DNA of 64,000 nucleotides from Xenophilus sp. Marseille-Q4582 (lineage in GTDB: Bacteria > Pseudomonadota > Gammaproteobacteria > Burkholderiales > Burkholderiaceae_C), in the NCBI RefSeq assembly GCF_916700565.1, contig NZ_CAKAKO010000002.1, positions 124,001 through 188,000 on the forward strand, in the 5' to 3' direction. Both the position numbers and the translations under genes were made by a program. Below the pieces are notes generated by a model. That model did no database searches. It was not told the DNA's origin and worked only from the letters and a program-made list of their open reading frames with translations. Each line of letters starts with the position of its first letter. Position 1 is the first letter of the stretch. This document shows positions 4,541-31,883 of this stretch, in pieces.

Positions 4541-7500
4541 TCAGCGCTGGGCGCGGGCCTGATGCGCCGCCGGCGCGCCATGCCCGGCCGCCGCGCGCAC
4601 GCGCGCCACCTGCGCGGGCAGGTCGGCCCAGGGCGCGGCCTGCGGCGCGAAGCGCGCGCGCATGTAGCCGGCCAGCTCGGCGATCTGCGCATCGCTGAGC
4701 GCGTCGCGGAAGGCCGGCATGTAGCCGATGTCGCGCGTGGCGGGCTCGCGCACGCCGTCGAGGATGGTGCGGATCAGGTTGTCGGGCCGCGCGCTGCTCA
4801 GCTGGCTGTTGAGCGCCAGCGGCGTGTTCACGCCCAGCAGCATGGGGCCGTCGCCGTCGTGGTGGCAGGCCGCGCAGGCGCTGTCGAACAGGCGCTGCGC
4901 GGGCCCCAGCAAGCGGCCCTGGTTCGCCGCGGCGGACTGCACCACGGCCCACGCCTGCTGCTGCCGGGCTTCCGGCGTGGTGGCTTCGGGCTTGGGCGCG
5001 GGATTGAAGCTGGCCAGGTAGGTGGCCATGGCGCGCACGTCGCTGTCGGGCAGCGCCTGCATCTCGCGCACCACCTCGGCCATGGGGCCGCCCGCCACGC
5101 CGTGGCGCGGTGAATGGCCGTGGCGCAGGTAGGCGTAGAGGCCCTCCGCGTCCCAGGGCACGGGGCTCTTCGACAGGGCGGTGAGCGCGGGCGCCTCCCA
5201 GCCGTCGATCATGGCGCCGGCCAGGAAGGAATCGCCCGTCTTCTCGGCCCCCAGCGCGTTGCGCGGCGAATGGCAGGCCGCGCAATGGCCCAGACCGTTG
5301 ACCAGGTAGGCGCCGCGGTTCCATTCGGCGCTCTGCGTGGGCACGTTCTGATACGGCGCGGGGTCGTGGAAGAGCGCGTTCCAGCCGGCCATGAGCGGGC
5401 GCAGGTTGAAGGGGAAGCGCAGGTCGTTGGCCGGCAGGACGGCCGGCGAGCCGTCCGCCCGGGCCCCGGCCTTCACGGGCGGCAGCGACATGAAGTACGC
5501 GTACAGCGCCTGCAGGTCGTCGTCGCTGGTCTTGGCGAAGGCGGTGTACGGGAAGGCGGGGTACAGGTGCCTGCCGTCGCGCGAGATGCCCTCGCGCATC
5601 GCGCGCTGGAAGGCGCTGAAGGACCAGGCGCCCAGGCCGGTCTCGGCATCGGGCGTGAGGTTGGTGGTGTGGATGGCGCCGAAGGGCGTCTGCATCGCCA
5701 GCCCGCCCGCATAGGGCAGGCCGCCGGGCGCGGTGTGGCAGACGATGCAGTCCCCCGCCGCGGCCAGCACGCGGCCGCGCTCGATGGTCTCGCTGCTGTA
5801 GGCCGGGGCGCTGAAGGACACCGGCGCGATGGCGGGCCGCCAGCCCATCAGGCCCGCAACGGCGCCCAGCCCGCCGATCACCAGCGCGGCGGCCGTGCTC
5901 CACAGCCCCTTGCGGCGCGGCGGCACGGCGGTTTCAGGCAGCGGGCGACCCGGGGCCGGTGCGCCCGCGCCGGCCGCTTCACCGAGGGGCGGCGGCCCCT
6001 TCGCAGGCGGCGGGCCGGCCGCAGCGCCATCGCCACCGGGCAGCGGGTTCAGCGCGGCCAGCACCTTCTCGGGCGTGAAGGGCGGCGCACGGAAGCGCAC
6101 GCCCGTGGCATCGAAGATGGCGTTGGCGATGGCGGCCGTGCCGGGCACCGAGGCCGACTCGCCCGCGCCCAGCGGCGACTCGCCAGGGCGCGGCATCTGC
6201 AGCACCTCGATCACCGGCACTTCACGGAAATTGATGATCGGGTAGCTGCCCCATTCGCGGCTCGCCACCACGCCGGTGGGCAGCACGCCGGGCAACTGTT
6301 CGCGCGTGGCCGCCTGCGCCGGCGCGGAGGCGGGCGCGAACTGCACCTCTTCCTTGAGCGCGCGGCTGGTGGTCTGGATCACGTTGCCGTGCACCTGGTG
6401 CTCGACGCCCGCCGGGTTGATGGTCAGGCCCGCGTCGTGGCCCACGACCACGCGGCGCACATGCACCTCGCCGGTCTTGCGGTTGACCTCCACGTCGGCC
6501 ACCCAGGCCGCCCAGGCGGCCCCGAAGCCCGGCCACTTGCTGTGCACGTAGCGGGCGTAGGCGAAGCCTTGCCCGAAAAGAATGTCGCCACCTGGCCCGA
6601 GGCCGCCGTCGCTGTTCTCCTGCGGCCCGGTGCGCCAGCGCCAGCCGGCCTTCTGCGCCGTGGCCTGAATCAGTTCGACGGCGCGCGGGTCTTCCAGGTG
6701 GCGCAGGCGGAACTGCACCGGGTCCACGCCCGCGGCGGTGGCCAGCTCGTCGATGAAGGATTCGTGCGCGAAGGCGTTGGGCAGCGCCGACACGCCGCGC
6801 AGCCACGAGGCGCGCACGATGGGCGCCATGTCGTGGACCTGCACGCGCAGGTTCTCGTACGCGTAGGGCGGGCGCGCCGTGCGGTCGCCCATCTCGTAGG
6901 CCTGCGCGAGCGGCTCCACGGTGCGCGTGAGCAGCAGCGCCAGCGTGGGCGCGCCGTTGCTCGGGTACGCGGTCTGGAAGTCGCAGGCCGCGAGCCCGCC
7001 CGACGCGGACAGTGCGCCGGCCACGGTCATGAGCTGGGCCGTGCCCTTGGGCTCCCACTGGTGTTCCTGCTCGCGCGTGAGCTGCACGCGCACCGGCTGG
7101 CCGACGGCGCGCGCCAGCAGCGCCGCGTCGGCCGCCACGTCGTCGGCGCCGTTGCGGCCGTAGCAGCCGGCCGCCTCCATGCGCACGATGTCGACCTCGA
7201 CGTCCGACAGACCCATGAGCTTGGCGAGGTCGGCGCGCAGCACATGCGGGTTCTGCGTGCCGGCCCAGCAACGCAGGCCCACGCCGTCTTCGGGGGCCCA
7301 GTGCGCCACCGCACAGGACGGGCCGATGGACGCATGCAGCTGATAAGGCCACAGGTACTCGCGCTGCAGCGCATGCGCGGCGCCGTCCAGCGCGGCCTGC
7401 ACGTCGCCCTCGTCCACCAGCCTGCGCGTGGTGGCGGCGTTGTCGCGGATGGCCTGCGCCACCTTGCCGGGCGCGTCCAGCTCCGGCATGCCGGGCCAGG

Positions 7501-8386
7501 GCTTCCAGCGCACGCGCAGTTCGCGCAGCGCCTGCTCGGCATGCTCCTCGCGTTCGGCCACGATGCCGACGAAGTCGCGGATCACCACCACCGCGCGGAT
7601 GCCCGGGATGTGGGCGATGGACGCCTCGTCCACCGATTCCAGCGTGTTGCCGATGAAGTCGCCATGGTCGGCGCCTGCATAGGGCGGGCGCACCACGCGG
7701 CCGTGCAGCATGCCGGGCAGGCGCATGTCGTGCACGAAGGCCAGCTCCCCCGCGAGCTTGGCCGGGATGTCCACGCGCGGCTGCGGCGTGCCCACGATGC
7801 GGTAGTCGGCCGCGGGCTTGACGGGCGTGTCGGCATCCAGCCGCAGCACCGTGCGCTGGCCGGCCACGAGCGCGCCGATGGGCAGGGCTTGCGCGGCGTC
7901 GCCTTCGCGCGCACGCACCACGCCCTGGTGCATCACCAGCGATCCAGGCGCCACGCCCAGCCGCTCGGCCGCGCGCGCCAGCAGCCAGTGGCGCGCCTGC
8001 GCGGCGGCCAGGCGCAGCGGCTGCGCATGGATCTGGATCGAGGCGCTCGCGATGGTGGCGCCCTGGTTGGGCACGCGCGCCGTGTGGCCCAGCTGCATGG
8101 CCACGCAGGCCAGGCCCAGGTCCAGTTCCTCGGCCACGATCTGCGACAGCGCGGTCTGGATGCCGGTGCCCAGGTCGACGTGGCCGTTGAGGGCGCTCAC
8201 GCTGCCGTCGTCCCACACGGCCAGCAGCACTTCATCGCCTTCGGCCGGGTTGGCGGGCACGGCCAGCGGCTGGCCCTTGGCCGGCGGCGGCGCGGGCGGC
8301 GGCGCGCGCACGATGACCAGCACGCCCTCCCCCTGCAGGAAGTCGGCGCGCGTGCGCGGCAGGTCGGCGCGGCGGGGCTGGCTCAC
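4541..8386 (-). CDS. NicB-like molybdopterin dehydrogenase fused to cytochrome c domains
   Basis: A 1281-aa protein. The GTG start at 8386 overlaps the stop of the small subunit gene as GTGA. Residues 1 to about 790 are a xanthine-oxidase-family molybdopterin domain (for example DLGTGIQTALSQIVAEEL and MEAAGCYGRNGADD). A hydrophobic helix at 827-849 follows, then three haem-c sites at C880-H884 (CIVCH), C1035-H1039 (CAACH) and C1171-H1175 (CAACH). This is the architecture of nicotinate dehydrogenase subunit B (NicB) and related isoquinoline/aldehyde oxidoreductases. I infer a cytoplasmic Mo domain and periplasmic cytochrome domains joined by the single helix, so electrons from substrate hydroxylation would reach the respiratory chain. 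Genes nearby make nicotinate to 6-hydroxynicotinate the best guess for the reaction. Confidence 0.85.
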   Translation of the reverse strand: MSQPRRADLPRTRADFLQGEGVLVIVRAPPPAPPPAKGQPLAVPANPAEGDEVLLAVWDDGSVSALNGHVDLGTGIQTALSQIVAEELDLGLACVAMQLGHTARVPNQGATIASASIQIHAQPLRLAAAQARHWLLARAAERLGVAPGSLVMHQGVVRAREGDAAQALPIGALVAGQRTVLRLDADTPVKPAADYRIVGTPQPRVDIPAKLAGELAFVHDMRLPGMLHGRVVRPPYAGADHGDFIGNTLESVDEASIAHIPGIRAVVVIRDFVGIVAEREEHAEQALRELRVRWKPWPGMPELDAPGKVAQAIRDNAATTRRLVDEGDVQAALDGAAHALQREYLWPYQLHASIGPSCAVAHWAPEDGVGLRCWAGTQNPHVLRADLAKLMGLSDVEVDIVRMEAAGCYGRNGADDVAADAALLARAVGQPVRVQLTREQEHQWEPKGTAQLMTVAGALSASGGLAACDFQTAYPSNGAPTLALLLTRTVEPLAQAYEMGDRTARPPYAYENLRVQVHDMAPIVRASWLRGVSALPNAFAHESFIDELATAAGVDPVQFRLRHLEDPRAVELIQATAQKAGWRWRTGPQENSDGGLGPGGDILFGQGFAYARYVHSKWPGFGAAWAAWVADVEVNRKTGEVHVRRVVVGHDAGLTINPAGVEHQVHGNVIQTTSRALKEEVQFAPASAPAQAATREQLPGVLPTGVVASREWGSYPIINFREVPVIEVLQMPRPGESPLGAGESASVPGTAAIANAIFDATGVRFRAPPFTPEKVLAALNPLPGGDGAAAGPPPAKGPPPLGEAAGAGAPAPGRPLPETAVPPRRKGLWSTAAALVIGGLGAVAGLMGWRPAIAPVSFSAPAYSSETIERGRVLAAAGDCIVCHTAPGGLPYAGGLAMQTPFGAIHTTNLTPDAETGLGAWSFSAFQRAMREGISRDGRHLYPAFPYTAFAKTSDDDLQALYAYFMSLPPVKAGARADGSPAVLPANDLRFPFNLRPLMAGWNALFHDPAPYQNVPTQSAEWNRGAYLVNGLGHCAACHSPRNALGAEKTGDSFLAGAMIDGWEAPALTALSKSPVPWDAEGLYAYLRHGHSPRHGVAGGPMAEVVREMQALPDSDVRAMATYLASFNPAPKPEATTPEARQQQAWAVVQSAAANQGRLLGPAQRLFDSACAACHHDGDGPMLLGVNTPLALNSQLSSARPDNLIRTILDGVREPATRDIGYMPAFRDALSDAQIAELAGYMRARFAPQAAPWADLPAQVARVRAAAGHGAPAAHQARAQR

Positions 8387-8946
8387 GGTGCCGGGGCCTC
8401 CGCCATGCGCTGCGCCGCCAGGGTGACGGCGCGCAGGATTTCCACATGCGTGCCGCAGCGGCACAGGTTGCCGGAGAGTTCTGCGCGGATGCGCGCCTCG
8501 CTGGGCTGCGGCTCGCGCGCCAGCAGCGCCGCGGCTTGCATCACCATGCCGTTGAGGCAGTAGCCGCACTGCGCGGCCTGCGCTTCTTCGAAGGCGGCCT
8601 GCACCGGGTGCCAGTCGCGCGCCGGGCCGGCGCCGGGCGCCGCGCAGGCGCGCACGAGCGAACCGGCCGCCGAGGCCTGGCCCGCCAGCCCTTCCAGCGT
8701 GGTGATGCGCCGCCCCGCCATGCCGTGCGCGGGAATCACGCAGGCGCGCGCGGCGGTGCCGTCCACGTGCACCGTGCAGGCCCCGCATTGCCCCAGCCCG
8801 CAGCCGTACTTCGGGCCGTTCAGGCCCAGGTCGTTGCGCAGCAGGTGCAGCAGCGAGGCCTGGCGCGAGGCCGCGACCGCCACGTCGCGGCCATTGACGT
8901 TCAGCCGCAGGGGTTCGGCGCGGCCGCTATCGCCGCAATTGGCCAT
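8383..8946 (-). CDS. NicA-like [2Fe-2S] small subunit
   Basis: A 187-aa protein starting MANCGDSGRAEPLRL. The plant-type [2Fe-2S] set is C49, C54, C57 and C69 (YGCGLGQCGACTVH), and the second, helical-domain set is C127, C130, C162 and C164 (QCGYC, LCRCG), exactly as in small subunits of the xanthine oxidase family. It passes electrons from the molybdenum site to the cytochrome domains of the partner. The start overlaps the end of the binding-protein gene by 20 bp and the stop overlaps the large-subunit start by 4 bp, indicating translational coupling. Confidence 0.9.
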   Translation of the reverse strand: MANCGDSGRAEPLRLNVNGRDVAVAASRQASLLHLLRNDLGLNGPKYGCGLGQCGACTVHVDGTAARACVIPAHGMAGRRITTLEGLAGQASAAGSLVRACAAPGAGPARDWHPVQAAFEEAQAAQCGYCLNGMVMQAAALLAREPQPSEARIRAELSGNLCRCGTHVEILRAVTLAAQRMAEAPAP

Positions 8947-10102
8947 CACTCGTGTACATCTCCAGGTCGACGAAATTGGAGCCGTTGTGGTTGCGCGCGC
9001 TGTACTCGACCGGGAAGCCGCCGAAGCTGGTGCGGCCGATGCTTTCCATGCCGGCGATGAAGCTGTCGCGCGTGAGCGCACGCCCGCCGCGCACCAGGCC
9101 TTCGACCATCACGCGGGCCACGATGTAGCCCTCCAGCGCGGTGTAGCTGTCGATCTTCTGGCCGAAGGCGGCGCGGTCCTGCTGGTAGTCGGCCACGATG
9201 GGCACGCGGATCGCCTTGGGCGGCGGCACGATGCTGGCCGTGACCAGGCCGGCCAGCTTGCCTTCCAGCCGCTTGGCCGAGCCGGCCGCGTCGGTGATGC
9301 CCACCGACAGCGTGTACAGCGGCGCGCCCGCGCCGCTGGCGCGGTAGTCGCGCATGAAGACCTCGACCTGGCGGCCGGCCATGAGCATGACCACGGCACC
9401 GGGTTTCAAGGTGATGAGCTCGGCCGCCTGCGCCTTGGCGTCTTCCGTCGCGATGGCCACCGGCAGCGCCTTCAGCACCTTTACCTTGTAGTCGGCGGCC
9501 AGTTCCTCGCAGGTGGCGAGGTTGGACTTGCCGAAGGGACTGTCCTGGTGCACCACCGCAATGGACTGGATGCCGATGGTCGACAGGTGGCTGATGATCT
9601 TGCGCAGCTCCAGGTCGTAGCCCGCGCGCACGTGGAACAGGTGGCGGTTGACCTTGGTGCGAAAGGACGTTGTGCCCACCAGCGGTGCGAACATGGGCAC
9701 GCCCGCCTTCTCGGCCAGCGGCATCGCCGCCGCCAGGTTGCCCGTGGCCACGTAGCCCACCAGCGCGAAGACCTTGTCCTCGTCGATCAGCTTCGCGGTG
9801 TTGGCCGCGGTCTTCGCGGGATCGTAGACATCGTCGTAGCTGACCAGCTCCAGGCGCCGGCCGTGCACGCCGCCGGCCTTGTTGACGCGCTCGAAGTACA
9901 GCTGGATGCCGGCCTGGTAGTCGACACCGAAGTCCTTGGCCGGCCCGCTGAACACGGCCGACTGGCCGAGGCGGATGGCCGCGTCGCTCACGCCCTGCGC
10001 CGCGGCCTGCCGGTGCAGCCCCAGCCCCGTGGCCAGCGCCGCGCCGGCCACCATCAGATCGCGTCTCCTCACTGCTTCCCGTCCGGTTCCATCCATCGCC
10101 AC
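8927..10102 (-). CDS. LIV-type ABC transporter substrate-binding protein (second copy)
   Basis: About 391 aa from a GTG at 10102, which has a GAGGGG ribosome site six bases upstream; an ATG at 10096 is the alternative. The N-terminus has a twin-arginine-like motif (RRRDLM) and an Ala-rich hydrophobic stretch ending QAAAQG, suggesting Tat export. The body is a type I periplasmic binding protein of the LivK class (IRLGQSAVFSGPAKDFG near the start of the mature protein). It is the second such protein in the island; the only permease in reach is LivHM at 12573-14564, so both probably feed that transporter. The ligand is probably a pyridine carboxylate or related compound, inferred from context only. 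Confidence 0.85.
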   Translation of the reverse strand: MAMDGTGREAVRRRDLMVAGAALATGLGLHRQAAAQGVSDAAIRLGQSAVFSGPAKDFGVDYQAGIQLYFERVNKAGGVHGRRLELVSYDDVYDPAKTAANTAKLIDEDKVFALVGYVATGNLAAAMPLAEKAGVPMFAPLVGTTSFRTKVNRHLFHVRAGYDLELRKIISHLSTIGIQSIAVVHQDSPFGKSNLATCEELAADYKVKVLKALPVAIATEDAKAQAAELITLKPGAVVMLMAGRQVEVFMRDYRASGAGAPLYTLSVGITDAAGSAKRLEGKLAGLVTASIVPPPKAIRVPIVADYQQDRAAFGQKIDSYTALEGYIVARVMVEGLVRGGRALTRDSFIAGMESIGRTSFGGFPVEYSARNHNGSNFVDLEMYTSDGQLRR

Positions 10103-10190
10103 TGAAAGCCCCTCGTGTGTTGGTTCTGACTTCTTGTTGTTCTGCTCTGGGCCGGAACGCCCGGCCCGCCCCGCCCCCTGAGGAATTCCG

Positions 10191-10922
10191 TCAACCCGCC
10201 GCGGCCGCGATGTCGCCCGACTGGATGCGCCGCACGCCCTGCGCGGCCATCTGCTTCCAGGCCGCGGCCAGCGAGCCGTTGAGGTCGATGGCGCGCGTGG
10301 CGTCCTCGATCACGTAGGCCTTGAAGCCGGCCTTGCGCGCGTCCAGCGCCGTCCAGGCGACGCAGAAGTCGGTGGCCAGGCCGGCCACGAACACGGTGTC
10401 GATGCCGCGCGCCTTCAGGTAGCCTGCCAGGCCGGTCACGGTCTTGCGGTCGGCCTCCTGGAAGGCCGAGTAGCTGTCCACGCCCTTGTTGAAACCCTTG
10501 CGGATGATCAGCTGCGCGGTGGGCAGCTGCAGGTCCTTGTGCAGGGCCGCATCGTCGGTGCCCTGCACGCAGTGGTCGGGCCACAGCACCTGGTCGCCAT
10601 AGTTCAGCCGGATGCTGGAAAAGGCCTTCTGCCCGCTGTGCGCGCTGGCGAAGGAGGCATGACCCGGCGTGTGCCAGTCCTGCGTGACCACGATGTTCTG
10701 GAACTTCGGCGCCAGCGCGTTGATGACGGGCACCACCTCGGCACCGCCCTTGACGGGCAGCGTGCCGCCCTCGACGAAGCAGTTCTGCACATCGACCACG
10801 ATGAGCGCCGCCTTGGCGCCTGGTTGGATGGGCGCGGCCGCCCACAGGGGCGCTGCGGCGCACCCCGCGCCCAGCGCGGCTGCAGCACCCAGGAAACGAC
10901 GACGAGAAGACAGAACGGTCAT
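10191..10922 (-). CDS. Tat-exported nicotinamidase-like isochorismatase-fold hydrolase
   Basis: A 243-aa protein starting MTVLSSRRRFLGAAAALG, a clear Tat signal (SRRRFLG) ending near LWAAA. The mature part has the nicotinamidase (PncA) layout: catalytic D44 in VVDVQN, K142 in IIRKGF and C187 in ATDFCV, with metal ligands D82, H84 and H88 in DWHTPGH. WPDHCVQGT is also a PncA-type motif. It should hydrolyse nicotinamide to nicotinate and ammonia, here in the periplasm; classical PncA is cytoplasmic. The ribosome site TGGAGG is well placed. It lies between livF and the second binding-protein gene, which fits supply of nicotinate to the importer. Confidence 0.85.
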   Translation of the reverse strand: MTVLSSRRRFLGAAAALGAGCAAAPLWAAAPIQPGAKAALIVVDVQNCFVEGGTLPVKGGAEVVPVINALAPKFQNIVVTQDWHTPGHASFASAHSGQKAFSSIRLNYGDQVLWPDHCVQGTDDAALHKDLQLPTAQLIIRKGFNKGVDSYSAFQEADRKTVTGLAGYLKARGIDTVFVAGLATDFCVAWTALDARKAGFKAYVIEDATRAIDLNGSLAAAWKQMAAQGVRRIQSGDIAAAAG

Positions 10923-11005
10923 GACAAGGCCCTCCAGTGAATGGAACGATGACGATGCACGGGGCGTGCCACGCAAACCGCCAGGCCGTGGCACGCCAGG
11001 GAGTG

Positions 11006-11755
11006 TCAGACCGAAAGGTAGGCGCGGCGCACGCCTTCGTTCGCGGCGAGTTCGGCCATGCTGCCCTCGAAGCGGATCTGGCCCTTCTCGAGCACGTAGG
11101 CGCGGTCGCTCACGAGTTCGGCGAAGTGCATGTTCTGTTCCGACAGCAGGATGGACACGCCCTGGGCCTTGAGCTCCAGGATCATGTGCGCCATCTGCTC
11201 GACGATCACGGGCGCCACGCCTTCGCTGGGCTCGTCCAGCAGCACCAGGTAGGGGTTGCCCATCAGCGTGCGCGCCACGGTCAGCATCTGCTGCTCGCCG
11301 CCGCTCATGCGGCCGCCCGGGCGGTTGGGCATCTCGCCCAGGTTGGGGAAGAGCTTGAACAGCTTCTCGGGCGTCCACTGCGGTGCCTCGCTGCCGTCGG
11401 CCCAGCGGCGCGCGGGCTGCCTGCCCACTTCGAGGTTCTCCATCACCGTGAGGTCGGTGAACACGCGCCGGTCCTCGGGCACGAAGCCCAGGCCCATCTT
11501 CGCGGCCTGGTGCGGCTCGGCGCGCGAGATGTCCTGGCCCAGAAAGTCGATCTGGCCGCGGCGCTTGGCCAGCATGCCGATCAGCGCCTTCAGCGTGGTG
11601 GACTTGCCGGCACCGTTGCGGCCCATCAGGGCCACCACCTCGCCGCGGCGCACTTCCAGACCCACGTCGTACAGGATCTGCGCGGCGCTGTACCAGGCGC
11701 ACAGGCTCTGCGCCTTCAGCAGGACGGGGCTGGCGGATGTCGTCGTGGCATTCAT
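11006..11755 (-). CDS. livF: LivF-type branched-chain ABC ATPase
   Basis: A 249-aa ATPase with Walker A GRNGAGKST, signature MSGGEQQ and Walker B YLVLLDEPSEGVAP, followed by LLSEQNMHFA, all typical of LivF. The start overlaps the livG stop by 4 bp (ATGA). It energises the HAAT-family importer with LivG and the LivHM permease. Its place in the nicotinate island suggests an aromatic acid or pyridine substrate rather than branched-chain amino acids, which is an inference. Confidence 0.9.
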   Translation of the reverse strand: MNATTTSASPVLLKAQSLCAWYSAAQILYDVGLEVRRGEVVALMGRNGAGKSTTLKALIGMLAKRRGQIDFLGQDISRAEPHQAAKMGLGFVPEDRRVFTDLTVMENLEVGRQPARRWADGSEAPQWTPEKLFKLFPNLGEMPNRPGGRMSGGEQQMLTVARTLMGNPYLVLLDEPSEGVAPVIVEQMAHMILELKAQGVSILLSEQNMHFAELVSDRAYVLEKGQIRFEGSMAELAANEGVRRAYLSV

Positions 11756-12576
11756 GCGTGGGCTCCCACCGCCGCGTTGACCTCGGCGGCCTCCTTGGCA
11801 ATCTTCTCGAAGGTCTTGCCGCTGCCGAAGTACACCTCCTGCACCTTCGGATGGTCGCGGATCTCGGCCGGCTTGCCTTCGGCGATGAGCCGGCCGCGGG
11901 CCAGCACGATGGAACGGTCGGCGTAGGCGAAGACCACGTCCATGCTGTGCTCGGTGAAGAGCACGGCCATGTTGCGGTCGATCACCAGCTGCTTGGTCAG
12001 GGCCATCAGCTCGTTGCGTTCCTTGGGCGCCATGCCGGCGGTGGGCTCGTCCATCAGCAGCAGCTTGGGGTCGTTGGCCATGGCGATGGCCAGCTCCACG
12101 CGCTTGACGTCGCCGTAGGCCAGTTCGCTGCAGGGGCGGTCGGCCTGCGCCTTCATGCCCACCTGGTCGAGCAGGGCCAGCGCCTTGTCGCGCTCGAAGT
12201 CGGCCGCGCGCCGCCACATCGAGAACAGCTTGTCGGCATGCGAGAGCAGTGCCATCTGCACGTTCTCCACCACCGTCAGCGAGGCAAAGGTCTCGGCGAT
12301 CTGGAAGGTGCGGCCCACGCCCAGGCGCCAGATGTCGCGCGGCGCCTTGCCGGTCAGCTCCACGCCGCCGAGGCGGATGGAGCCCTGGCTGGCCTTGAGC
12401 TGGCCGTTGACCATGTTGAAGGTGGTGGACTTGCCGGCGCCGTTGGGGCCGATGAAGGCCAGCAGTTCGCCGGCGTGCAGATCGAAGCTGATGCCGTCGA
12501 CGGCCTTCACGCCGCCGAAGGACTTGCCCAGGTCGCGCACCTGCAGCAGCACGTCGGAATGGGATGCGGGGCTCAT
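11752..12576 (-). CDS. livG: LivG-type branched-chain ABC ATPase
   Basis: A 274-aa ATPase starting MSPASHSDVLLQVRDLGKS. Walker A is GPNGAGKST, Walker B is LLLMDEPTAGMAPKE, and the LivG-typical TFNMVNGQLKASQGSI segment follows Walker A. The canonical signature LSGGQ is replaced by ELAYGDVKR, as is usual in LivG proteins. ATGA overlaps at both ends (with livHM upstream and livF downstream) show a tightly coupled transporter operon. Confidence 0.9.
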   Translation of the reverse strand: MSPASHSDVLLQVRDLGKSFGGVKAVDGISFDLHAGELLAFIGPNGAGKSTTFNMVNGQLKASQGSIRLGGVELTGKAPRDIWRLGVGRTFQIAETFASLTVVENVQMALLSHADKLFSMWRRAADFERDKALALLDQVGMKAQADRPCSELAYGDVKRVELAIAMANDPKLLLMDEPTAGMAPKERNELMALTKQLVIDRNMAVLFTEHSMDVVFAYADRSIVLARGRLIAEGKPAEIRDHPKVQEVYFGSGKTFEKIAKEAAEVNAAVGAHA

Positions 12577-16013: not shown

Positions 16014-16080
16014 GCGAAGACTCCTTGGATAGAGGGGGTCATGGGTGAATGGCAGCAAGAACGTTGTGGCTCAGGGCTCC

Positions 16081-16164
16081 CGTGGAGCGGGCTCTGCCCG
16101 GCCACCGGGAGCGCCCCCATCGCGAAGCAGAGGGGGGAGCGGCGAAGCCGCTTGGGGGGTGTTT
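16081..16164 (-). repeat. 3'-end GC hairpin repeat, copy B
   Basis: It begins right after the stop of the second AA_synth gene. In gene sense it shows AACACCCCCC, a hairpin AGCGGCTTCGCCGCT, then CCCCCC pairing with a later GGGGG. It shares the proximal module with copies A, C and D. Confidence 0.6.
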
Positions 16165-16749
16165 TCATCTCAACCCGTCCTTGCCCTCGATCTCGGACAC
16201 CTGCAGGCCGCCGATGCGCGGCAGCGGGCGGCCGCTGTCGGTCACGGCCACCGCGACCACGATCTCGCCGGCGCGCGGCGCGTCGCTCACACGGGCCTCG
16301 ACGGCGTCGAAATGGCTGCGCACGAACGCCGCATCCTTGTGGCCCAGGGGCACATCGATGGCGGTGCCCAGCGTGCCCCGCTTCTTGGCCGAGGGCACCA
16401 GCGCGGCGCCCTTCTCGACGGCCTGGCGCAGCGGCGCGCCCAGCTTGGGATGCAGGATGGCGGCGGCATGCTCCAGCTCGCCGCCCTCGCCAACGATCGC
16501 GGCCTTGCCATAGCTCTGCGCCTGGCCCGGCGCGATGCCCAGCGCCTTCACGGCCTTCTGGCCGAGCAGCGCGCCCAGTTCCTCGCCGATGGCGATCAGT
16601 TCGTCGAGGTTCTCGCTGTAGCGGCCCGCATAGGGGTTGGCGATCACGGCGATGGCCACGGCGCGGCGCGTGGGCGGGTCGATGGCCTGGCCCTGCTCCT
16701 GGCGGGTTTCGTCCACCTGGATCACGAGCTTGCGGATGTCTGCGGGCAT
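16165..16749 (-). CDS. AA_synth (DUF1185) family protein, copy 2
   Basis: A 194-aa protein starting MPADIRKLVIQVDETRQEQG. It shares motifs with its neighbour at 16786: VIANPYAGRYSENL, YGKAAIVGEGGELEHAA, DVPLGHKDAAFVRSHFDAVEARV and the C-terminal KDGLR. These are marks of the AA_synth family (PF06684), whose name is historical and whose reaction is, to my knowledge, not established. An AAGGA ribosome site is present. It is placed between the upstream copy and the transporter genes, so a role in ring catabolism is possible. Confidence 0.8.
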   Translation of the reverse strand: MPADIRKLVIQVDETRQEQGQAIDPPTRRAVAIAVIANPYAGRYSENLDELIAIGEELGALLGQKAVKALGIAPGQAQSYGKAAIVGEGGELEHAAAILHPKLGAPLRQAVEKGAALVPSAKKRGTLGTAIDVPLGHKDAAFVRSHFDAVEARVSDAPRAGEIVVAVAVTDSGRPLPRIGGLQVSEIEGKDGLR

Positions 16750-16785
16750 GGAGGATCCTTCTTTCTTGCTTGTGCGGGCGGCGCT

Positions 16786-17439
16786 TCAGCGCAGGCCATC
16801 CCATTTGCTGATGTCTTCGGCCCGCAGGCCGCCCACGCGCGCATGCACGCGGTAGCCGGTGCTCATGGCCAGGATGAAGACGATTTCGTCGGCGGCCGGC
16901 GCGCCGGGCACACGCACCTCGATGGCGTCGAACTGGCCGCGCACGTAGCTGGCGTTGATGTTGGTCAGCGGCACATCGAGCGCGGCGCCGGGCGGCCCGA
17001 CCTTCTTGGTCGAGGGCACGATGGACAGCGCGTTGCCGGGCTGGCCGCTTTTCTCTTCCGCCTTGCCGGCCGTGTAGGCCGCGCGGTCGCCCTTCCAGCC
17101 GAGCAGCTCGCGCATCGCGTAGCCGCCGGGCACGTGCCACAGCGCGCCGTGCTCCAGTTCGCCGGCCGCGCCGACGATGGCGCCCTTGCCGTAGGTGGCG
17201 ATCTGTTCCGTGGACACGTCCATGGCCGCGAGCAGCCGATGCGCCATGTCCACGCCCACGGGGTCGAGCTGGCCCATCATCGGCAGGATGTCGGGCTCGT
17301 AGCGGCCGGCGTAGGGGTTGGTCAACACCGCCCCGATGGCGCCCCGCACCAGCGGCGCGCCGGCACGCGGGCCGAACTCGTGGTGGATGTGTTCCACGTG
17401 GGTGAACACGCGGCGCACGTCGATCAGCGACGCGCTCAT
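16786..17439 (-). CDS. AA_synth (DUF1185) family protein, copy 1
   Basis: A 217-aa protein starting MSASLIDVRRVFTHVEH; an upstream in-frame extension lacks coding character. Shared family motifs are LTNPYAGRYEPDI, YGKGAIVGAAGELEHGA, DVPLTNINASYVRGQFDAIEVRV and KWDGLR. It is clearly paralogous to copy 2 but longer in the middle. Two divergent copies side by side suggest a heteromeric enzyme or two successive steps. The function is unknown; the position beside 6-hydroxynicotinate reductase points to processing of a cyclic amide or its product, as a hypothesis only. Confidence 0.8.
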   Translation of the reverse strand: MSASLIDVRRVFTHVEHIHHEFGPRAGAPLVRGAIGAVLTNPYAGRYEPDILPMMGQLDPVGVDMAHRLLAAMDVSTEQIATYGKGAIVGAAGELEHGALWHVPGGYAMRELLGWKGDRAAYTAGKAEEKSGQPGNALSIVPSTKKVGPPGAALDVPLTNINASYVRGQFDAIEVRVPGAPAADEIVFILAMSTGYRVHARVGGLRAEDISKWDGLR

Positions 17440-17533
17440 CGCGGTGCGCCTCGGCGGACGCGCATGCACCGCGAAGCGGCGTCGTGCGCAGAGGATGGAT
17501 GCGGGAACAACTTCATCATGAATCTGCCACTCG

Positions 17534-18499
17534 TTAAGCAAATACTGAACCAACCGCCACGCCGGCCGCGGCGTGATGGGCCGGATCCGGCAGGGGCGTC
17601 CGAGGCCCGGAAGGGGCCGCCGGCACCCCGTGAATCACCGAGCATAAGGGCTGCACGCTGCGCCATTGCCCCTGGCATACCAGCACCGCGGCATGGATGT
17701 GCCCGGCGGCCTGCAGCGCCTGCGCGCGCGCGGCACCGGCAGCCAGCGCCGCGGCCACCGCTGCCGCCGGCAGCGCGGGCACGTCGACCGTGACCGGCAG
17801 CGTGCCGAGGTCGCTGTCGTCCTTGCAGTCGCAGGCGGGCAGGCGCCGGATGGCGGGGTGCGGCGCATCGACCGCGTTGGCGATCACGGTGGCGGCTGCA
17901 TCGGCCTGCGCGGCCGTGGCCGCCAGCACCGTCACGCTGTCGGCGATGCCGCGCGAGAAGCTGCGGCCGCGCCAGCCGCTGGTGGCCACGCCACGCACGG
18001 GCATGCCGGCATGCACCGTGAACTGGCCGTCCGTGCGCAGCGCCTGCGCGGCGGCCGGATCGAAGCTCGCCAGGTCGGCGTACAAGCCCACGCGCGCCTG
18101 CTCACCCGGTGCCAGGTGCAGCGCGATGTCGCCGCCGTTGTTGGCCCAGGCGCGCGCGATGCCGGGCCGCGCGTAGCAGGCGATCAGCTCCTGCGCCACG
18201 GCCCCCGCCACCGCCGCCATGGGCGTGATGAATTCGGGTGCGTCGGCGACGGCGGCGGCGCAGGCCGCATGCATGCGGCGCGCCACCGCGCCGTGCAGCG
18301 GCGCCCGCGCAGTCACGGGCTGGCGCAAGGCGGGCAGCTCGGCGACCAGCTCGTCCAGCAGCGGCACGAAGCGCTGCCAGGCGGCCTCGTGCGCCGCAGC
18401 CACGGCCTGCGCCTCGCCCTCGGCCTGCAGCACGAGGTCCATCGGCCCGTGCTGGAAATGCCAGCGCGCGGCGTCGAGGCGGTGACGGGTGGCGGCCAT
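17534..18499 (-). CDS. UPF0280 family, ApbE-like protein
   Basis: A 321-aa protein starting MAATRHRLDAARWHFQHGPMD. The core WANNGGDIALHLAPGEQARVG carries the GGDI motif shared between UPF0280 proteins and the flavin transferase ApbE, and SGWRGRSFSRGIADSVTVLA is also UPF0280-like. ApbE proteins attach FMN covalently to Thr/Ser of flavoproteins. The gene follows 6-hydroxynicotinate reductase by 25 bp, and the Eubacterium barkeri enzyme of that name is reported to hold a covalent flavin. A maturation role is therefore a testable inference; UPF0280 members themselves are uncharacterised as far as I know. Confidence 0.75.
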   Translation of the reverse strand: MAATRHRLDAARWHFQHGPMDLVLQAEGEAQAVAAAHEAAWQRFVPLLDELVAELPALRQPVTARAPLHGAVARRMHAACAAAVADAPEFITPMAAVAGAVAQELIACYARPGIARAWANNGGDIALHLAPGEQARVGLYADLASFDPAAAQALRTDGQFTVHAGMPVRGVATSGWRGRSFSRGIADSVTVLAATAAQADAAATVIANAVDAPHPAIRRLPACDCKDDSDLGTLPVTVDVPALPAAAVAAALAAGAARAQALQAAGHIHAAVLVCQGQWRSVQPLCSVIHGVPAAPSGPRTPLPDPAHHAAAGVAVGSVFA

Positions 18500-18524
18500 G
18501 GCGAAGCGTCGGCGCGGGTGCCGC

Positions 18525-20147
18525 TCAGCCCAGCATGGGCCCATGGCCCAGCGGCCAGACGTTGTCGGCGCCCGGCGCGACCCAGCGGCGCGCGAGCGGC
18601 GCGCCGTCGTCCTGCCAGGCCCCGCGGCGCAGCGCCTGCTCCAGCGGCATCACGTGGTCCACATGGCCGCCGAGCGCCGCGAAGTCGGCCAGTCTCATGC
18701 TGAACTCGATGGGCGCGATGATGGCCGGCGTGGGCACGGTGCCGAAGGCGTTGTCGGGCATGCGCATGACGTCGGCCATCACCGTGATGCCGCCGCCCGG
18801 CCACACATAGGCCGGCGCGCCGCCGCAGGTGACGTTGACCAGCGCACGCTTGATGGCGCGCGTGAGCAGGATCGGGTTCTCGGTGACGCCGGCGCGCAGC
18901 GAGCCGCCGGCGCCGCCCAGGAACAGCACCGTGCACAGCGAGGGCTCGCAGTTCTCGCCGATGCGGTCCACCACTTTCTGCACCTCGGCCGGCATGTCCT
19001 GCCGCACGGGCCGCAGCTGCTCGTCGAGCACGTACCACTCGGCCTGCTCGCCGGTGGTGGAGGTCATGAGCAGGCGCAAGCCGGGCCGGGCCACGCCCTC
19101 TTCCCAGCCTTCGATGATGGCCAGCGGATCGGCGATGTCGGTGCCGCCCCAGCCGCTGCCGGGATTGGCGACCTGGAAGTAGCGCCCCGGGGTGGACTTG
19201 CGCCCGCGCATCTGGATGCCCGAAGGCGCCATCGACAGGCAGCGGCCGGCCTGGTGCTCGGTCAGCACGCCGGTGATGTGGTCGTCGACCACCACCACTT
19301 CGTCGGCCAGGCCCAGCAGCTGCTTGGCGAAGATGCCCACGGTGGCCGAGCCGCAGCCCACGCGCATGCGCTGCTCTTCCACGCCGTTGACGATGGGCGC
19401 CTTGCCGGCCTGGATGACCAGGCTGGCGCCGCCGTCGATGGCGCATTCGGCCGCCTGCTTGTTGCACAGGTTCTGCATGAGCTCCAGCGTCATGCGGCCT
19501 TCCTTCTTGCTGCCGCCCGTGAGGTGGTGCACGCCGCCCAGCGACAGCATCTGCGAGCCGTATTCGGCCGTGGTCACGTGGCCCACCACCTCACCCTTGT
19601 AGCGGATGTTGGCCTGCTCGGGGCCGAGGAAGCGGTCGGTGTCGATCTTCACCTTCACGCTGCAGTAGCTGAAGATGCCTTCGGTGACCACAGTGACCAT
19701 GTCCACGCCCTCGGCCTTGGAGGCGACGATGAAGGGCGCGGGCTTGTAGTCGGGGTAGGTGGTGGAGGCGCCGATGCCGGTGACGAAGACCTGGTCGGCC
19801 AGCAGCAGGTCGCCGTCCCAGTCGGGCGCGGCGTCCTCGGCGGCCGCGGGCTCGGCCCCGGCCCGCGCGAAGGGCACGAGGGCCGGCGCGTCGCTGGCCA
19901 GCTCGCGGCGCAGCAGCACGACCGGATCGACCCGCACCAGCACGCCGGCGCGGTTGGCGTAGCGGTCGCAGGCGCCGGTGCGCCCCTCGGAAATCTGGCA
20001 CAGCACCGGACAGGCGTTGCACTCCACCTTGGCCGTGCTCATGCGCTCGTTGCGCGGCGGCGCCTTGCCCAGGCCCAGCGCGGCGCTGTCGGGCAGCACG
20101 GGCAGATCCATGCCAGGCAGGCCGTCGGTCTTCGTGTGTTCAGTCAT
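18525..20147 (-). CDS. 6-hydroxynicotinate reductase
   Basis: A 540-aa protein starting MTEHTKTDGLPGMDLP; the ATG at 20147 was chosen over in-frame starts upstream. An N-terminal Fe-S motif CX2CX3CX9C is at C43, C46, C50 and C60 (CNACPVLC...GAC). Further cysteines (ENCEPSLC, NLCNKQAAEC, VGCGSAT) could hold more clusters. The overall pattern matches 6-hydroxynicotinate reductase, which reduces 6-hydroxynicotinate to 1,4,5,6-tetrahydro-6-oxonicotinate with low-potential electrons. It is first in a long minus-strand series and divergent from a ferredoxin-NADP reductase gene. Candidate flavin attachment sites, by loose likeness to ApbE targets, are GAST at 126-129 and the GSAT in VGCGSATVG. Confidence 0.85.
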   Translation of the reverse strand: MTEHTKTDGLPGMDLPVLPDSAALGLGKAPPRNERMSTAKVECNACPVLCQISEGRTGACDRYANRAGVLVRVDPVVLLRRELASDAPALVPFARAGAEPAAAEDAAPDWDGDLLLADQVFVTGIGASTTYPDYKPAPFIVASKAEGVDMVTVVTEGIFSYCSVKVKIDTDRFLGPEQANIRYKGEVVGHVTTAEYGSQMLSLGGVHHLTGGSKKEGRMTLELMQNLCNKQAAECAIDGGASLVIQAGKAPIVNGVEEQRMRVGCGSATVGIFAKQLLGLADEVVVVDDHITGVLTEHQAGRCLSMAPSGIQMRGRKSTPGRYFQVANPGSGWGGTDIADPLAIIEGWEEGVARPGLRLLMTSTTGEQAEWYVLDEQLRPVRQDMPAEVQKVVDRIGENCEPSLCTVLFLGGAGGSLRAGVTENPILLTRAIKRALVNVTCGGAPAYVWPGGGITVMADVMRMPDNAFGTVPTPAIIAPIEFSMRLADFAALGGHVDHVMPLEQALRRGAWQDDGAPLARRWVAPGADNVWPLGHGPMLG

Positions 20148-20255
20148 CGTGGCGTTCCGTTGATGCATCGGTCCGGTCTGCAACAAGCATGCCCGCATTC
20201 GGGTTTGTCTCGTGCTTGTGACGCCAGCACCCTTTGTGTAGCATCCGCTCCACTT

Positions 20256-20277
20256 TCATGTGGTGTTCGCTACATGA
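20256..20277. promoter_or_regulatory. Inverted repeat TCATGT-N10-ACATGA, likely TetR operator
   Basis: Perfect 6-bp arms separated by 10 bases in the divergent hnr/fpr intergenic region, 109 bp upstream of the reductase start. The size and symmetry suit a TetR-family dimer; the TetR gene at 21421 is the obvious candidate. A wider pair, GTAGC and GCTAC, flanks part of it. Confidence 0.45.
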
Positions 20278-20621
20278 ATGGGAAATTTAACCATGCGGCG
20301 CGATGCTTGCATGGGTGTTTTCCTGAGGATGCGGTCACCACCGTGGTGCGCCGCGAACGCAAAAGAGGTGCACGAGCCGATGAGACCGAAGTCCTGGTGC
20401 GCGGGGCCGCAGCGCGGCCGCGGCAAGCGCCCGTTGCGCACCGCCTGGGCGGTGCGGCCGCGGGCCGGCCGGCGCGCGGCCCCGCCTGCCGGGGCCCGCG
20501 GCCACGCCCGGGCCGCCCCGGCGGCATGCCCGACAATCGGGCGCCTTCAGCCGGTTGACGCCGCCAGCCCCGTTTGCAAGCCTCACGTCTCCGATCTCCT
20601 TCCACCTTTCCAAGCCTTGCC
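20278..20621. other. Non-coding stretch upstream of fpr
   Basis: About 340 bases of very GC-rich sequence without a convincing gene; one open frame starting near 20278 has poor codon use. It contains a small palindrome GCCCGA-CAA-TCGGGC at 20528-20542, whose centre resembles a -10 element for fpr. Nothing else is recognised. Confidence 0.4.
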
Positions 20622-21395
20622 ATGAGTGCTTTCAACGAAGAACGCGTCCTCTCCGTCCACCACTGGACCGACCGCCTGTTCAGCTTCAAGACCACGCGCG
20701 ACCCCGCGCTGCGCTTCTCCAACGGCCACTTCACCATGATCGGCCTGAAGATCAATGGCAAGCCGCTGCTGCGCGCCTACAGCATCGCCAGCGCCAACTA
20801 CGAGGAAGAGCTGGAGTTCCTGTCGATCAAGGTCGAGAACGGCCCGTTGACCTCGCACCTGCAGCACATCCAGGTGGGCGACACCATCATCGTCGGCCGC
20901 AAGCCCACGGGCACGCTGCTGATCGACTACACGCTGCCCGGCAAGCGCCTGTACCTGTTCGGCACCGGCACCGGCCTGGCGCCCTTCCTGAGCACGATCC
21001 GCGACCCCGACACCTACGACAAGTACGAGCAGGTGATCCTGGTGCACGGCGTGCGCGAAGTGGCCGAGCTGGCCTACCACGACTACATCACGAAGGAACT
21101 GCCGCAGCACGAGTTCCTGGGCGAGATGGTGAGCAAGCAGCTGCTGTACTACCCCACCGTGACGCGCGAGCCCTTCCGCAACCAGGGGCGCATCACCGAC
21201 CTGATCAAGAGCAACAAGCTCACCGACGACCTGGGCCTGCCGCCGATCAACCCGCTGGAAGACCGCGCCATGATGTGCGGCAGCCCGGCGCTGCTGGCCG
21301 ACCTGAAGGAAATCCTCGAGAAGCGCGACTTCGAGGAAGGCAACACCTCGACGCCCGGTGACTTCGTCGTCGAACGCGCCTTCGTCGAGAAGTAA
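20622..21395 (+). CDS. fpr: Ferredoxin-NADP(+) reductase
   Basis: A 257-aa flavoprotein starting MSAFNEERVLSVHHWTD. The FAD-binding motif RAYSIASANYEEE is near residue 50 and the NADP-binding motif GTGTGLAPFLST near residue 115, ending VVERAFVEK as in bacterial Fpr proteins. It interconverts NADPH and reduced ferredoxin or flavodoxin. It resembles the common housekeeping type, but its place divergent from 6-hydroxynicotinate reductase and ahead of TetR and enamidase suggests it feeds that reductase here. No ferredoxin gene is in the window. Confidence 0.92.
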   Translation: MSAFNEERVLSVHHWTDRLFSFKTTRDPALRFSNGHFTMIGLKINGKPLLRAYSIASANYEEELEFLSIKVENGPLTSHLQHIQVGDTIIVGRKPTGTLLIDYTLPGKRLYLFGTGTGLAPFLSTIRDPDTYDKYEQVILVHGVREVAELAYHDYITKELPQHEFLGEMVSKQLLYYPTVTREPFRNQGRITDLIKSNKLTDDLGLPPINPLEDRAMMCGSPALLADLKEILEKRDFEEGNTSTPGDFVVERAFVEK

Positions 21396-21420
21396 GCCCC
21401 ACTGAGGCCCTGACGCCCTG

Positions 21421-22185
21421 ATGGCCACGCGCAAGACCGTCGCCCGCCCGCAGCGCAAGACCGGCGTGCGCGAGGCGCAGGCGCAGGCCTCGAAGGACGC
21501 GATCCTGCGCGCGGCGACCAAGGTGTTCGCCAAATACGGTTACGAGGGCGGCAGCGTCGAGAAGATCTCGAAGGCGGCCAAGTCCTATGACCGGATGATC
21601 TACTACTATTTCGGCAACAAGGAAGGCCTGTTCGTCGCGGTGCTGGAGGGCATCTACCACCGCATGGACGAGGCCGAGGCCGCCATCGCGCTGGACATGG
21701 AGCGCCCCGTGGAGGCACTCGCCGAGGTGATCCGCTTCGTGCTGGGCTACTACCGCGCGAACCCCGACTTCGTCACGCTGCTCAACACCGAGAACCTGCA
21801 CAAGGGCCGGCACATCGCCAAGTCGCTGCGGGCACGCGAATACTCCTCGCGCGCCGTGGCCATCATTGCGCAGATCCTGGCCAGCGGCGGCGCGCAGGGC
21901 CTGTTCCGCACCGACCTGGCCGCGCGCGACCTGTACCTGCTGATCGCGGCCACCGGCTACTTCTACATGTCCAACCGCTACACGCTCACCAGCTTCCTGG
22001 GCGAGCCGCTGGAGTCGCCCGAGGCCGTGGCGCACTGGGAGGCCTTCGTCATCGAGACGGTGATGCGCACGGTGCGCCAGGACGACAGGAACAACGAGCT
22101 TTCCACCCCCACCCCTCACGAGGAATCGAAATGGCAGAAGTCGCAGCCGCCGGCAAGTCGGGCAAGGTCGTCATCCAGAACATAG
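21421..22185 (+). CDS. TetR/AcrR family transcriptional regulator
   Basis: A 254-aa protein starting MATRKTVARPQRKTGVREAQ. The N-terminal helix-turn-helix covers ILRAATKVFAKYGYEGGSVEKISKAAK and the typical YYYFGNKEGLF follows; the C-terminal half is a ligand-binding helical domain. The last 18 codons overlap the start of the enamidase gene by 55 bp, so the two are co-transcribed and probably translationally linked. It likely responds to a nicotinate pathway intermediate and binds the palindrome at 20256-20277, by inference. Confidence 0.88.
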   Translation: MATRKTVARPQRKTGVREAQAQASKDAILRAATKVFAKYGYEGGSVEKISKAAKSYDRMIYYYFGNKEGLFVAVLEGIYHRMDEAEAAIALDMERPVEALAEVIRFVLGYYRANPDFVTLLNTENLHKGRHIAKSLRAREYSSRAVAIIAQILASGGAQGLFRTDLAARDLYLLIAATGYFYMSNRYTLTSFLGEPLESPEAVAHWEAFVIETVMRTVRQDDRNNELSTPTPHEESKWQKSQPPASRARSSSRT

Positions 22186-23327
22186 GGCTGCTGCTCTCCG
22201 GCGACATCGACCACCCCATCCTGGACGCCGACACCCTCGTCGTGAACGACGGCCTGATCACGGCCGTCGGCAAGTTCAAGGACTGCGACACCGAAGGCGC
22301 GAAGACCGTCATCGACGCCCGGGGCGTGTGCGTGGCGCCGGGCCTGATCGACAGCCACGTGCATCCGGTGGCCGGCGACTGGACACCGCGCCAGAGTCAG
22401 CTCAACTGGATCGAGTCCAGCATGAACGGCGGCGTGACCACCATGATCTCGGCCGGCGAGGTGCACTACCCCGGCCGGCCCAAGGACATCGTGGGCCTGA
22501 AGGCGCTGGCCATCACGGCGCAGCGGGCCTTCGACGCCTTCCGCCCGGGCGGCGTGAAGGTGCTGGCCGGCGCGCCGGTGATCGAGAAGGGCATGGTCGA
22601 GAGCGACTTCAAGGAACTGGCCGAGGCCGGCGTGGGCCTGCTCGGCGAGGTGGGCCTGGGCACGGTGAAGGCCGGCTACGAGGCCAAGGAGATGGTGGCC
22701 TGGGCGCGCAAGTACGGCATCCAGAGCACGATCCACACGGGCGGGCCGTCGGTGCCGGGCTCGGGCTACATCGACAAGGACACGGTGCTGGAGGCCGACG
22801 CCGACATCATCGGCCACATCAACGGCGGCCACACCTCGCTGCCGCTCAAGCATGTGTGCGAGCTGTGCGAACAAAGCACGCGCGGCATCGAGATCGTGCA
22901 CAACGGTAACGAGCGTGTGGCCATCGGTGCGGCGCGCGCGGCCATCGAGCTCAAGTGCCCGCACCGCGTGATCCTGGGCACCGACGGGCCGGCCGGCTCG
23001 GGCGTGCAGCCGCTGGGCATCCTGCGCATGGTGTCGCTGATCTCGTCGATGGCCGACATCCCGGCCGAGGTCGTGTTCTGCTTCGCGACCGGCAACACGG
23101 CGCGCATGCGCAATCTCAACTGCGGCCTCATCGAGGTGGGCCGCGCGGCGGACTTCGTCTTCATGGACCGCGCGCAGCACACGGCCGGCAAGACGCTGCT
23201 GGAAAGCGTGCAGCTGGGCGACATCCCGGGCGTGGGCATGGTGATGATCGACGGCCTCGTGCGCGCCGGGCGCAGCCGCAACACGCCGCCGGCCACCGAA
23301 GTGCCCGTGGTGCTGGGCGCCCACTGA
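22131..23327 (+). CDS. Enamidase-type amidohydrolase
   Basis: A 398-aa metal-dependent amidohydrolase starting MAEVAAAGKSGKVVIQ, with a good ribosome site (GAGGAA). The metal motif HxH is at H76 and H78 (GLIDSHVHP), and later ligand regions are STIHTGG, GHINGGHTS and LGTDGPAGSGVQP. The overall sequence resembles Eubacterium barkeri enamidase, a binuclear Fe-Zn enzyme that opens 1,4,5,6-tetrahydro-6-oxonicotinate to 2-formylglutarate and ammonia. Co-occurrence with 6-hydroxynicotinate reductase strongly supports this reading over a general imidazolonase-like role. Confidence 0.82.
   Translation: MAEVAAAGKSGKVVIQNIGLLLSGDIDHPILDADTLVVNDGLITAVGKFKDCDTEGAKTVIDARGVCVAPGLIDSHVHPVAGDWTPRQSQLNWIESSMNGGVTTMISAGEVHYPGRPKDIVGLKALAITAQRAFDAFRPGGVKVLAGAPVIEKGMVESDFKELAEAGVGLLGEVGLGTVKAGYEAKEMVAWARKYGIQSTIHTGGPSVPGSGYIDKDTVLEADADIIGHINGGHTSLPLKHVCELCEQSTRGIEIVHNGNERVAIGAARAAIELKCPHRVILGTDGPAGSGVQPLGILRMVSLISSMADIPAEVVFCFATGNTARMRNLNCGLIEVGRAADFVFMDRAQHTAGKTLLESVQLGDIPGVGMVMIDGLVRAGRSRNTPPATEVPVVLGAH

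Positions 23328-30164: not shown

Positions 30165-31883
<1,719 letters not shown>

Follow-up and report, generated by a model that had tools for sequence, protein, structure and literature searches.

A conserved Xenophilus gene island for probable nicotinamide and nicotinate catabolism of the Azorhizobium type, with UPF0280 and AA_synth proteins as candidate components

The window analysed here is a stretch of 64,000 nucleotides from Xenophilus sp. Marseille-Q4582 (contig NZ_CAKAKO010000002.1, positions 124,001 to 188,000). Its positions 4541–23327 hold a gene island with open frames, which we read, at a probability of roughly 80%, as a set for catabolising nicotinamide and nicotinate aerobically through the reductive route of the Azorhizobium type. 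On the minus strand, from a divergent promoter outward, lie hnr, the UPF0280 gene, AAs2, AAs1, a binding protein gene, livHM, livG, livF, the nicotinamidase gene, a second binding protein gene, nicA and nicB; the plus strand of the island carries genes for a ferredoxin-NADP reductase and a TetR regulator, and ena. The features are as follows, by position in the window.

4541–8386, minus strand: NicB-type nicotinate hydroxylase large subunit, with a molybdopterin part, a hydrophobic stretch and three c-type haem sites
8383–8946, minus strand: NicA-type 2Fe-2S subunit, with Fer2 and Fer2_2 domains
8927–10102, minus strand: second periplasmic binding protein (PF13458, E = 9.7e-55), inconstant among relatives
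10191–10922, minus strand: nicotinamidase (NF008623, 175.3 bits, a bare pass of the cut-off of 174; PDB 2wt9, E = 1.5e-84)
11006–11755, minus strand: LivF-type importer ATPase, named by likeness and conserved place (a plasmid homologue is annotated as an ABC transporter ATP-binding protein)
11752–12576, minus strand: LivG-type importer ATPase
12573–14564, minus strand: fused LivH–LivM permease, an open reading frame in a conserved place
14802–16058, minus strand: importer periplasmic binding protein (PF13458, E = 3.1e-73)
16165–16749, minus strand: AAs1, AA_synth/DUF1185 protein, candidate for the 2-formylglutarate step (PF06684, 239.6 bits, cut-off 27; closest structure 2qtp, E = 5.7e-86)
16786–17439, minus strand, start codon chosen among possible starts: AAs2, AA_synth/DUF1185 protein, probable partner of AAs1 (PF06684, 208.3 bits, cut-off 27; closest structure 3byq, E = 3.1e-45)
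17534–18499, minus strand: UPF0280 protein (NF003322, 382.5 bits, cut-off 290)
18525–20147, minus strand: Hnr, 6-hydroxynicotinate reductase by its annotated homologues, with an invariant C-x2-C-x3-C-x9-C motif
20258–20275, minus strand: candidate operator ATGTAG-N6-CCACAT, an inverted repeat in the divergent promoter region
20574–21395, plus strand: ferredoxin-NADP reductase (FAD_binding_6 and NAD_binding_1 domains), present in 80 of 80 relatives
21421–22185, plus strand: TetR-family regulator (TetR_N and TetR_C_29 domains)
22131–23327, plus strand: Ena, predicted enamidase turning 1,4,5,6-tetrahydro-6-oxonicotinate (THON) into 2-formylglutarate and ammonia (PDB 2vun, E = 1.1e-109)

Domain, NCBIfam and PDB matches bear out every gene class named by the original prediction, each in its place; three genes that it did not mention, for UPF0280 and the two AA_synth proteins, stand between hnr and the importer genes on the same strand. 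A pattern-based scan of 84,980 genomes, one per species, gave 210 Hnr relatives, of which the best 80 were kept. The ferredoxin-NADP reductase is encoded at all 80 of these loci, UPF0280, AAs2 and TetR at 79 each, and AAs1 and Ena at 78 each, the gaps for these five all falling on loci of 5 to 13 kb. The importer follows closely (first binding protein 77, LivHM 75, LivG 72, LivF 71), as do NicA (70) and the nicotinamidase (68). NicB was seen at 58, a count affected by its frequent position past the end of the stretch, and the second binding protein at 34. Hydroxylase, Hnr, ring opener and importer thus stand together in one conserved cluster, and the conservation of the block among the kept relatives is far above chance. 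The closest named relatives by Hnr are Xenophilus, Pseudacidovorax and Variovorax, with 94% identity to the Hnr of Xenophilus arseniciresistens, and the Azorhizobium-type gene set is common across Comamonadaceae. Gene families, linkage and co-occurrence are read here from sequence.

The original prediction proposed that the ring is oxidised, then reduced, then opened, and this order is supported by the NicAB pair, the annotated Hnr homologues and the membership of Ena in the 2vun family. Nicotinamide would be turned into nicotinate by a probably exported nicotinamidase, and uptake would run through the LIV-type importer. The nicotinamidase carries a twin-arginine-like SRRRFL at its N-terminus, which we take to be a twin-arginine signal, and the enzyme is likely exported, suggesting that nicotinamide may be cleaved outside the cytoplasm prior to uptake. 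At three loci (L058, L082 and L085) the nicotinamidase gene is absent with both flanking genes visible. NicAB would hydroxylate nicotinate to 6-hydroxynicotinate, with its c-type haems relaying the electrons into the respiratory chain; both the substrates and this electron path are what we infer. The nicA gene overlaps the start of nicB by 4 bases. The front part of NicB matches the large subunit of an aldehyde dehydrogenase (PDB 8gy3_C) and nicotinate dehydrogenase (3hrd), and residues 834–1267 match the cytochrome c subunit of the former (8gy3_A). CxxCH motifs stand at residues 880, 1035 and 1171, and the hydrophobic stretch at 828 is possibly a membrane span.

This is a known pathway type, and a well conserved one. 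Reduction to THON is described first for Eubacterium barkeri and then for the aerobe Azorhizobium caulinodans, and a Figure 4 legend in the same paper lists the cluster, shown in 2012, in Azorhizobium, Bradyrhizobium, Rhodopseudomonas and strain SG-6C (PMC3511419). Azorhizobium is elsewhere grouped with E. barkeri (PMC9304392), and its nicotinate catabolism is reported for aerobic culture and as not measurable in microaerobic culture (PMC3357923). Aerobic hydroxylation to 6-hydroxynicotinate, followed by THON reduction and hydrolysis of the ring, is reported for Azorhizobium and is therefore an established route, and we rejected the idea that the hybrid of the original prediction is unusual or new (PMC3511419, PMC9304392). 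The Azorhizobium and SG-6C clusters resemble the island in aerobic hydroxylation, THON reduction and importer genes within the cluster. Compared with alphaproteobacterial loci such as L125, L136 and L138, the island has a TetR rather than a MarR regulator, two AA_synth genes rather than one, and a nicotinamidase gene.

Kitts (1989, 1992) is said to have described the Azorhizobium nicotinate route, and Alhapel (2006) reportedly described nicotinate fermentation in E. barkeri with Hnr and Ena steps. The island shares these two steps, its Ena being of the 2vun kind, whereas E. barkeri has its own nicotinate dehydrogenase in place of NicAB with c-type haems. We noticed no gene for the 2-(hydroxymethyl)glutarate branch among the island proteins, the rest of the genome not having been searched for one. 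The Pseudomonas putida nic pathway (Jimenez, 2008) reportedly has a NicAB-type first step followed by oxidative decarboxylation; it is like the island in that first step and differs in the second, which in the island would be reductive. No NicC- or NicX-like gene was noticed among the island genes, and the genome itself was not searched for them.

Hnr, fed with NADPH through the ferredoxin-NADP reductase, would reduce 6-hydroxynicotinate to THON. On plasmids we found 26 Hnr homologues at 55–84% identity, 17 of them annotated "6-hydroxynicotinate reductase" and the other nine hypothetical or within unannotated stretches; on viral contigs none was confirmed. Seven cysteines are unchanged in all 43 rows of the Hnr alignment. 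Hnr has no match in Pfam or NCBIfam at E ≤ 0.001 and none in the PDB at E ≤ 1. Its Cys-rich N-terminus (residues 36–61) is weakly like the N-terminal region of AmmeMemoRadiSam radical SAM proteins (E 0.03–0.06, in five of six Hnr scanned), which may be chance or a common iron-sulfur motif. The ferredoxin-NADP reductase, the presumed electron entry to Hnr, falls under the cut-off of its top NCBIfam model, NF008178 (133 of 390 bits), and is in view at 15 of 33 further Hnr loci that lie outside the Comamonadaceae scan (L116–L139, L283, L284 and L299–L305). At one of these (L124:8511–10273, genome G016) Hnr runs across two overlapping frames, as a split gene, a frameshift or a sequencing error.

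The UPF0280 protein is strictly linked to Hnr and is probably a dedicated partner of that enzyme. Among 398 Pseudomonadota genomes, for which both searches are taken as the same draw by their genome handles, strong Hnr matches and UPF0280 matches over the cut-off fall in the identical 32. The total of Hnr matches is 33, G383 (E = 7e-4) being counted as noise, and two more UPF0280 matches score about 20 bits, far under the cut-off. UPF0280 is also encoded at 33 of the 33 further Hnr loci and on 26 of the 26 plasmid records with Hnr, and on 27 plasmid records in all. Its AlphaFold model (pLDDT 82) resembles DVU1097 (2o34, E = 5.4e-10) and, to a lesser degree, the ApbE flavin transferases. Against Pfam ApbE the protein scores 13.5 bits with a cut-off of 25.6, leaving a resemblance of fold only. 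We take UPF0280 to be COG2122, with which the match to the Desulfovibrio structure agrees.

Homocysteine synthesis in Desulfovibrio is described as needing the COG2122 protein together with DUF39, and COG2122 as distantly ApbE-like, with a likeness that reportedly does not cover the flavin site (PMC5764234). The parallel lies in working with a second enzyme, which is DUF39 there and would be Hnr here. Kinship of Hnr with DUF39 would, had it held, explain the common COG2122-type partner; Pfam and NCBIfam searches up to E = 10 gave no such match, and we rejected that idea. The simplest reading is that UPF0280 would mature or assist Hnr, acting as a dedicated partner or maturation factor. The strictness of the link suggests that a ring-reducing iron-sulfur enzyme has a partner or maturation step so far unrecognised.

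Ena would open the ring of THON, giving 2-formylglutarate and ammonia. Its residues 11–391 align with the E. barkeri enamidase 2vun, and the HxH, HTGG, HINGG and D motifs, which presumably hold the metal ligands, line up. Across the 33 further Hnr loci the ring opener is Ena at nine and a hydantoinase/oxoprolinase (HyuA or HyuAB) at 18 (L116–L119, L124, L126, L128–L130, L134, L283, L284 and L300–L305), and the two never occur together in the 27 loci showing one. Neither is in view at six, including G339, where Ena lies just beyond the stretch, and G123, where it is on another contig. HyuAB may be an ATP-dependent replacement of the enamidase or the mark of another substrate. The hydroxylase varies as well, with NicAB at 12 loci, a two-gene xanthine-dehydrogenase-like pair at 18 and none seen at three. 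That pair stands beside or near Hnr in place of NicAB at L116, L117, L123, L124, L128, L130–L135, L137, L139, L283, L284, L299, L302 and L303.

Within the AA_synth family it is the AAs1 subfamily that goes with the enamidase. The two island genes are the sole PF06684 genes of the genome, and 59 of the 398 genomes carry the family, namely 31 of the 32 with Hnr and 28 without. In a tree of 111 AA_synth sequences, some of whose long branches are unsure, AAs1 forms a clade (support 99/93) that includes PDB 2qtp, and AAs2 another (100/100) that includes 3byq. The sequences from trigonelline (tgn)-like loci fall among the remaining groups, apart from the AAs1 clade, and one from an Hnr-less genome (L215) joins that clade by a long branch. 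Of the 32 genomes with Hnr, the 18 with a strong Ena (60–100% identity) all have AAs1, as does one of the 14 without (Fisher p = 4e-8, relatedness not corrected); that one, G386, has NicAB and HyuAB. Among the 33 further Hnr loci AAs1 stands at 12 of 12 with NicAB and at six of the 18 with the other hydroxylase. In two genomes an AAs2–AAs1–Ena–MarR locus (L221:8944–11926 and L222:8617–12111) has no Hnr nearby, Hnr being on another contig.

Gene neighbourhoods were compared for 25 of the 28 AA_synth genomes that lack Hnr (L201–L220, L285, L286 and L289–L291). Among the neighbours at the 20 loci L201–L220 are an aldehyde dehydrogenase at 17, a hydrolase at 13, a flavin reductase at 12, a luciferase-like monooxygenase at 11, GntR at 10, DUF1330 at eight and CMD at seven; oxygenase, flavin reductase and aldehyde dehydrogenase are all together at 10. 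This set of neighbours, which L289–L291 show again, is what we take to be trigonelline-like. Like the island, tgn clusters hold an AA_synth protein, theirs being accompanied by a hydrolase, a luciferase-like monooxygenase, a flavin reductase and an aldehyde dehydrogenase; they belong to a succinate branch, as opposed to glutarate. At L285 and L286 AA_synth is paired with an Ena-like gene of 40–41%. Nine plasmids have a divergent Ena-like gene (37–45%), with AA_synth directly upstream on five, two of these five clusters also holding an annotated succinate-semialdehyde dehydrogenase nearby. KpiC, an extradiol dioxygenase, is reported to be 28% identical to an enamidase (PMC7356986), and the divergent Ena-like genes therefore may not encode enamidases and lend weak support to an AA_synth–Ena link.

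Many of the AA_synth settings seem to have a ring-opened 2-formyl dicarboxylate, free or masked, preceding a semialdehyde. From this common setting we propose that the family may decarboxylate or tautomerise 2-formyl dicarboxylates. In the island, glutarate semialdehyde would be formed from 2-formylglutarate in this way by AAs1, probably as a mixed oligomer with AAs2, an assignment that we hold tentatively and at less than even odds. Slightly more doubtful is the extension to the whole of PF06684, in which AAs1 (with AAs2) would decarboxylate 2-formylglutarate and the tgn-like and Ena-linked members would do so with 2-formylsuccinate in further ring-cleavage pathways. The AA_synth homologue TgnF is reported to stimulate the TgnE-dependent oxidation of succinic semialdehyde (PMC7913881). 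All 111 sequences share the same residue at 12 positions, including Lys82, Glu93, His94, Arg108, Glu162 and Arg178 (AAs1 numbering), and a crystal paper describes a cavity between two protomers where conserved Glu–Arg bridges and histidines are found (PMC2954203). With conserved residues at such an inter-protomer cavity, a mixed AAs1–AAs2 dimer is plausible. Two PF06684 structures have been solved and published without function. Were AAs1 the 2-formylglutarate enzyme, aerobic nicotinate catabolism would have a gene for its decarboxylation step, and structures 2qtp and 3byq would gain a function. The proposals offer a concrete testable role to two protein families lacking an assigned reaction, and both the UPF0280–Hnr and the AAs1–Ena links are worth following. 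The open-licence literature searched gave no role for UPF0280 or AA_synth in the THON route.

Several observations weigh against the roles proposed here. The structure model of Hnr was unusable (pLDDT 44.6), and therefore we make no fold claim for it. One plasmid has UPF0280 with no Hnr match (L293:8920–9852). Genome G139 has Hnr, UPF0280 and HyuA with zero AA_synth, and AAs1 is found with HyuAB replacing Ena on seven plasmids and in G386; it is therefore not tied to Ena alone. At three of the 20 loci (L201, L202 and L205) AA_synth has no oxygenase, flavin reductase or aldehyde dehydrogenase beside it, and four of the nine Ena-like plasmid stretches hold no AA_synth. HcdD, a PF06684 protein, is reported to have shown no effect in its authors' tests (PMC7913881). 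E-2AMS hydrolase alone reportedly gives succinic semialdehyde and CO2, needing no separate decarboxylase (PMC3538738), a precedent suggesting that 2-formyl acids may decarboxylate unaided. This last point fits a somewhat unlikely alternative within the same pathway, in which 2-formylglutarate decarboxylates non-enzymatically and the AA_synth pair works for Hnr instead, perhaps as a tautomerase or a double-bond isomerase making the 2-pyridone ring ready. The AA_synth genes do come after Hnr–UPF0280 at 32 of the 33 further loci, and HcdD, whose gene shares an operon with that of the initial enzyme of 7-hydroxycoumarin breakdown, is proposed to aid dihydrocoumarin formation (PMC7913881). However, AAs1 and AAs2 accompany Ena, with Hnr absent, at the two loci described above, 28 of 366 genomes lacking Hnr have AA_synth, and AAs2 is missing from the clusters L125, L136 and L138, all of genus g110.

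It is improbable that the cluster degrades another pyridine, such as a substituted nicotinate or 6-chloronicotinate, with nicotinate secondary. Related Hnr cores are combined with different hydroxylases and ring openers, and the core may thus serve several 2-pyridones, but in the island NicAB, the nicotinamidase and the 2vun-type enamidase jointly point to nicotinate, and strain SG-6C, which bears such a cluster, is reported to grow on nicotinate (PMC3511419). A decayed or silent island is very improbable, as its frames are open, its gene order is conserved and its proteins stay close to those of relatives (Hnr 76–94%, UPF0280 60–69%, AAs1 up to 97%). The reading that we prefer is that nicotinamide and nicotinate are catabolised aerobically along the Azorhizobium-type route.

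The L293 copy of UPF0280 lies between IS1071 copies on a Hydrogenophaga plasmid and is present at four places in the record.

In Azorhizobium the glutarate route involves a decarboxylation and a CoA transfer. Candidate genes for such a route are present in the Xenophilus genome. A GcdH-type acyl-CoA dehydrogenase (residues 102–496 of its open reading frame against glutaryl-CoA dehydrogenase 3gnc, E = 8.5e-230) adjoins a class III CoA-transferase and a LysR gene at about C2:200.3–203.9 kb. The two enzymes are encoded on the contig of the island, over 50 kb away from it and 12–15 kb beyond the window. A succinate-semialdehyde dehydrogenase over the cut-off is encoded on contig C4. Given the AA_synth pair as a candidate, the claim that 2-formylglutarate lacks a visible gene becomes doubtful, and that of a missing lower pathway is weakened by these genes. 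The lower route need not be open; the succinate-semialdehyde dehydrogenase, the CoA-transferase and the glutaryl-CoA dehydrogenase could together finish it to crotonyl-CoA. The Azorhizobium route is likewise printed as passing via glutarate (PMC3511419).

Across 33 aligned upstream regions, conservation of ATGTAG and C-n-ACAT reaches 90% or more, making ATGTAG-N6-CCACAT a candidate TetR site. It is the only match in the window, with 0.06 expected when up to one mismatch is allowed. Next to the island lies a group of genes for histidine use, hutF, hutI, hutU and then hutC (window 26936–34386); amid them is a small gene (29571–30164) that has no NCBIfam match at E ≤ 1e-40.

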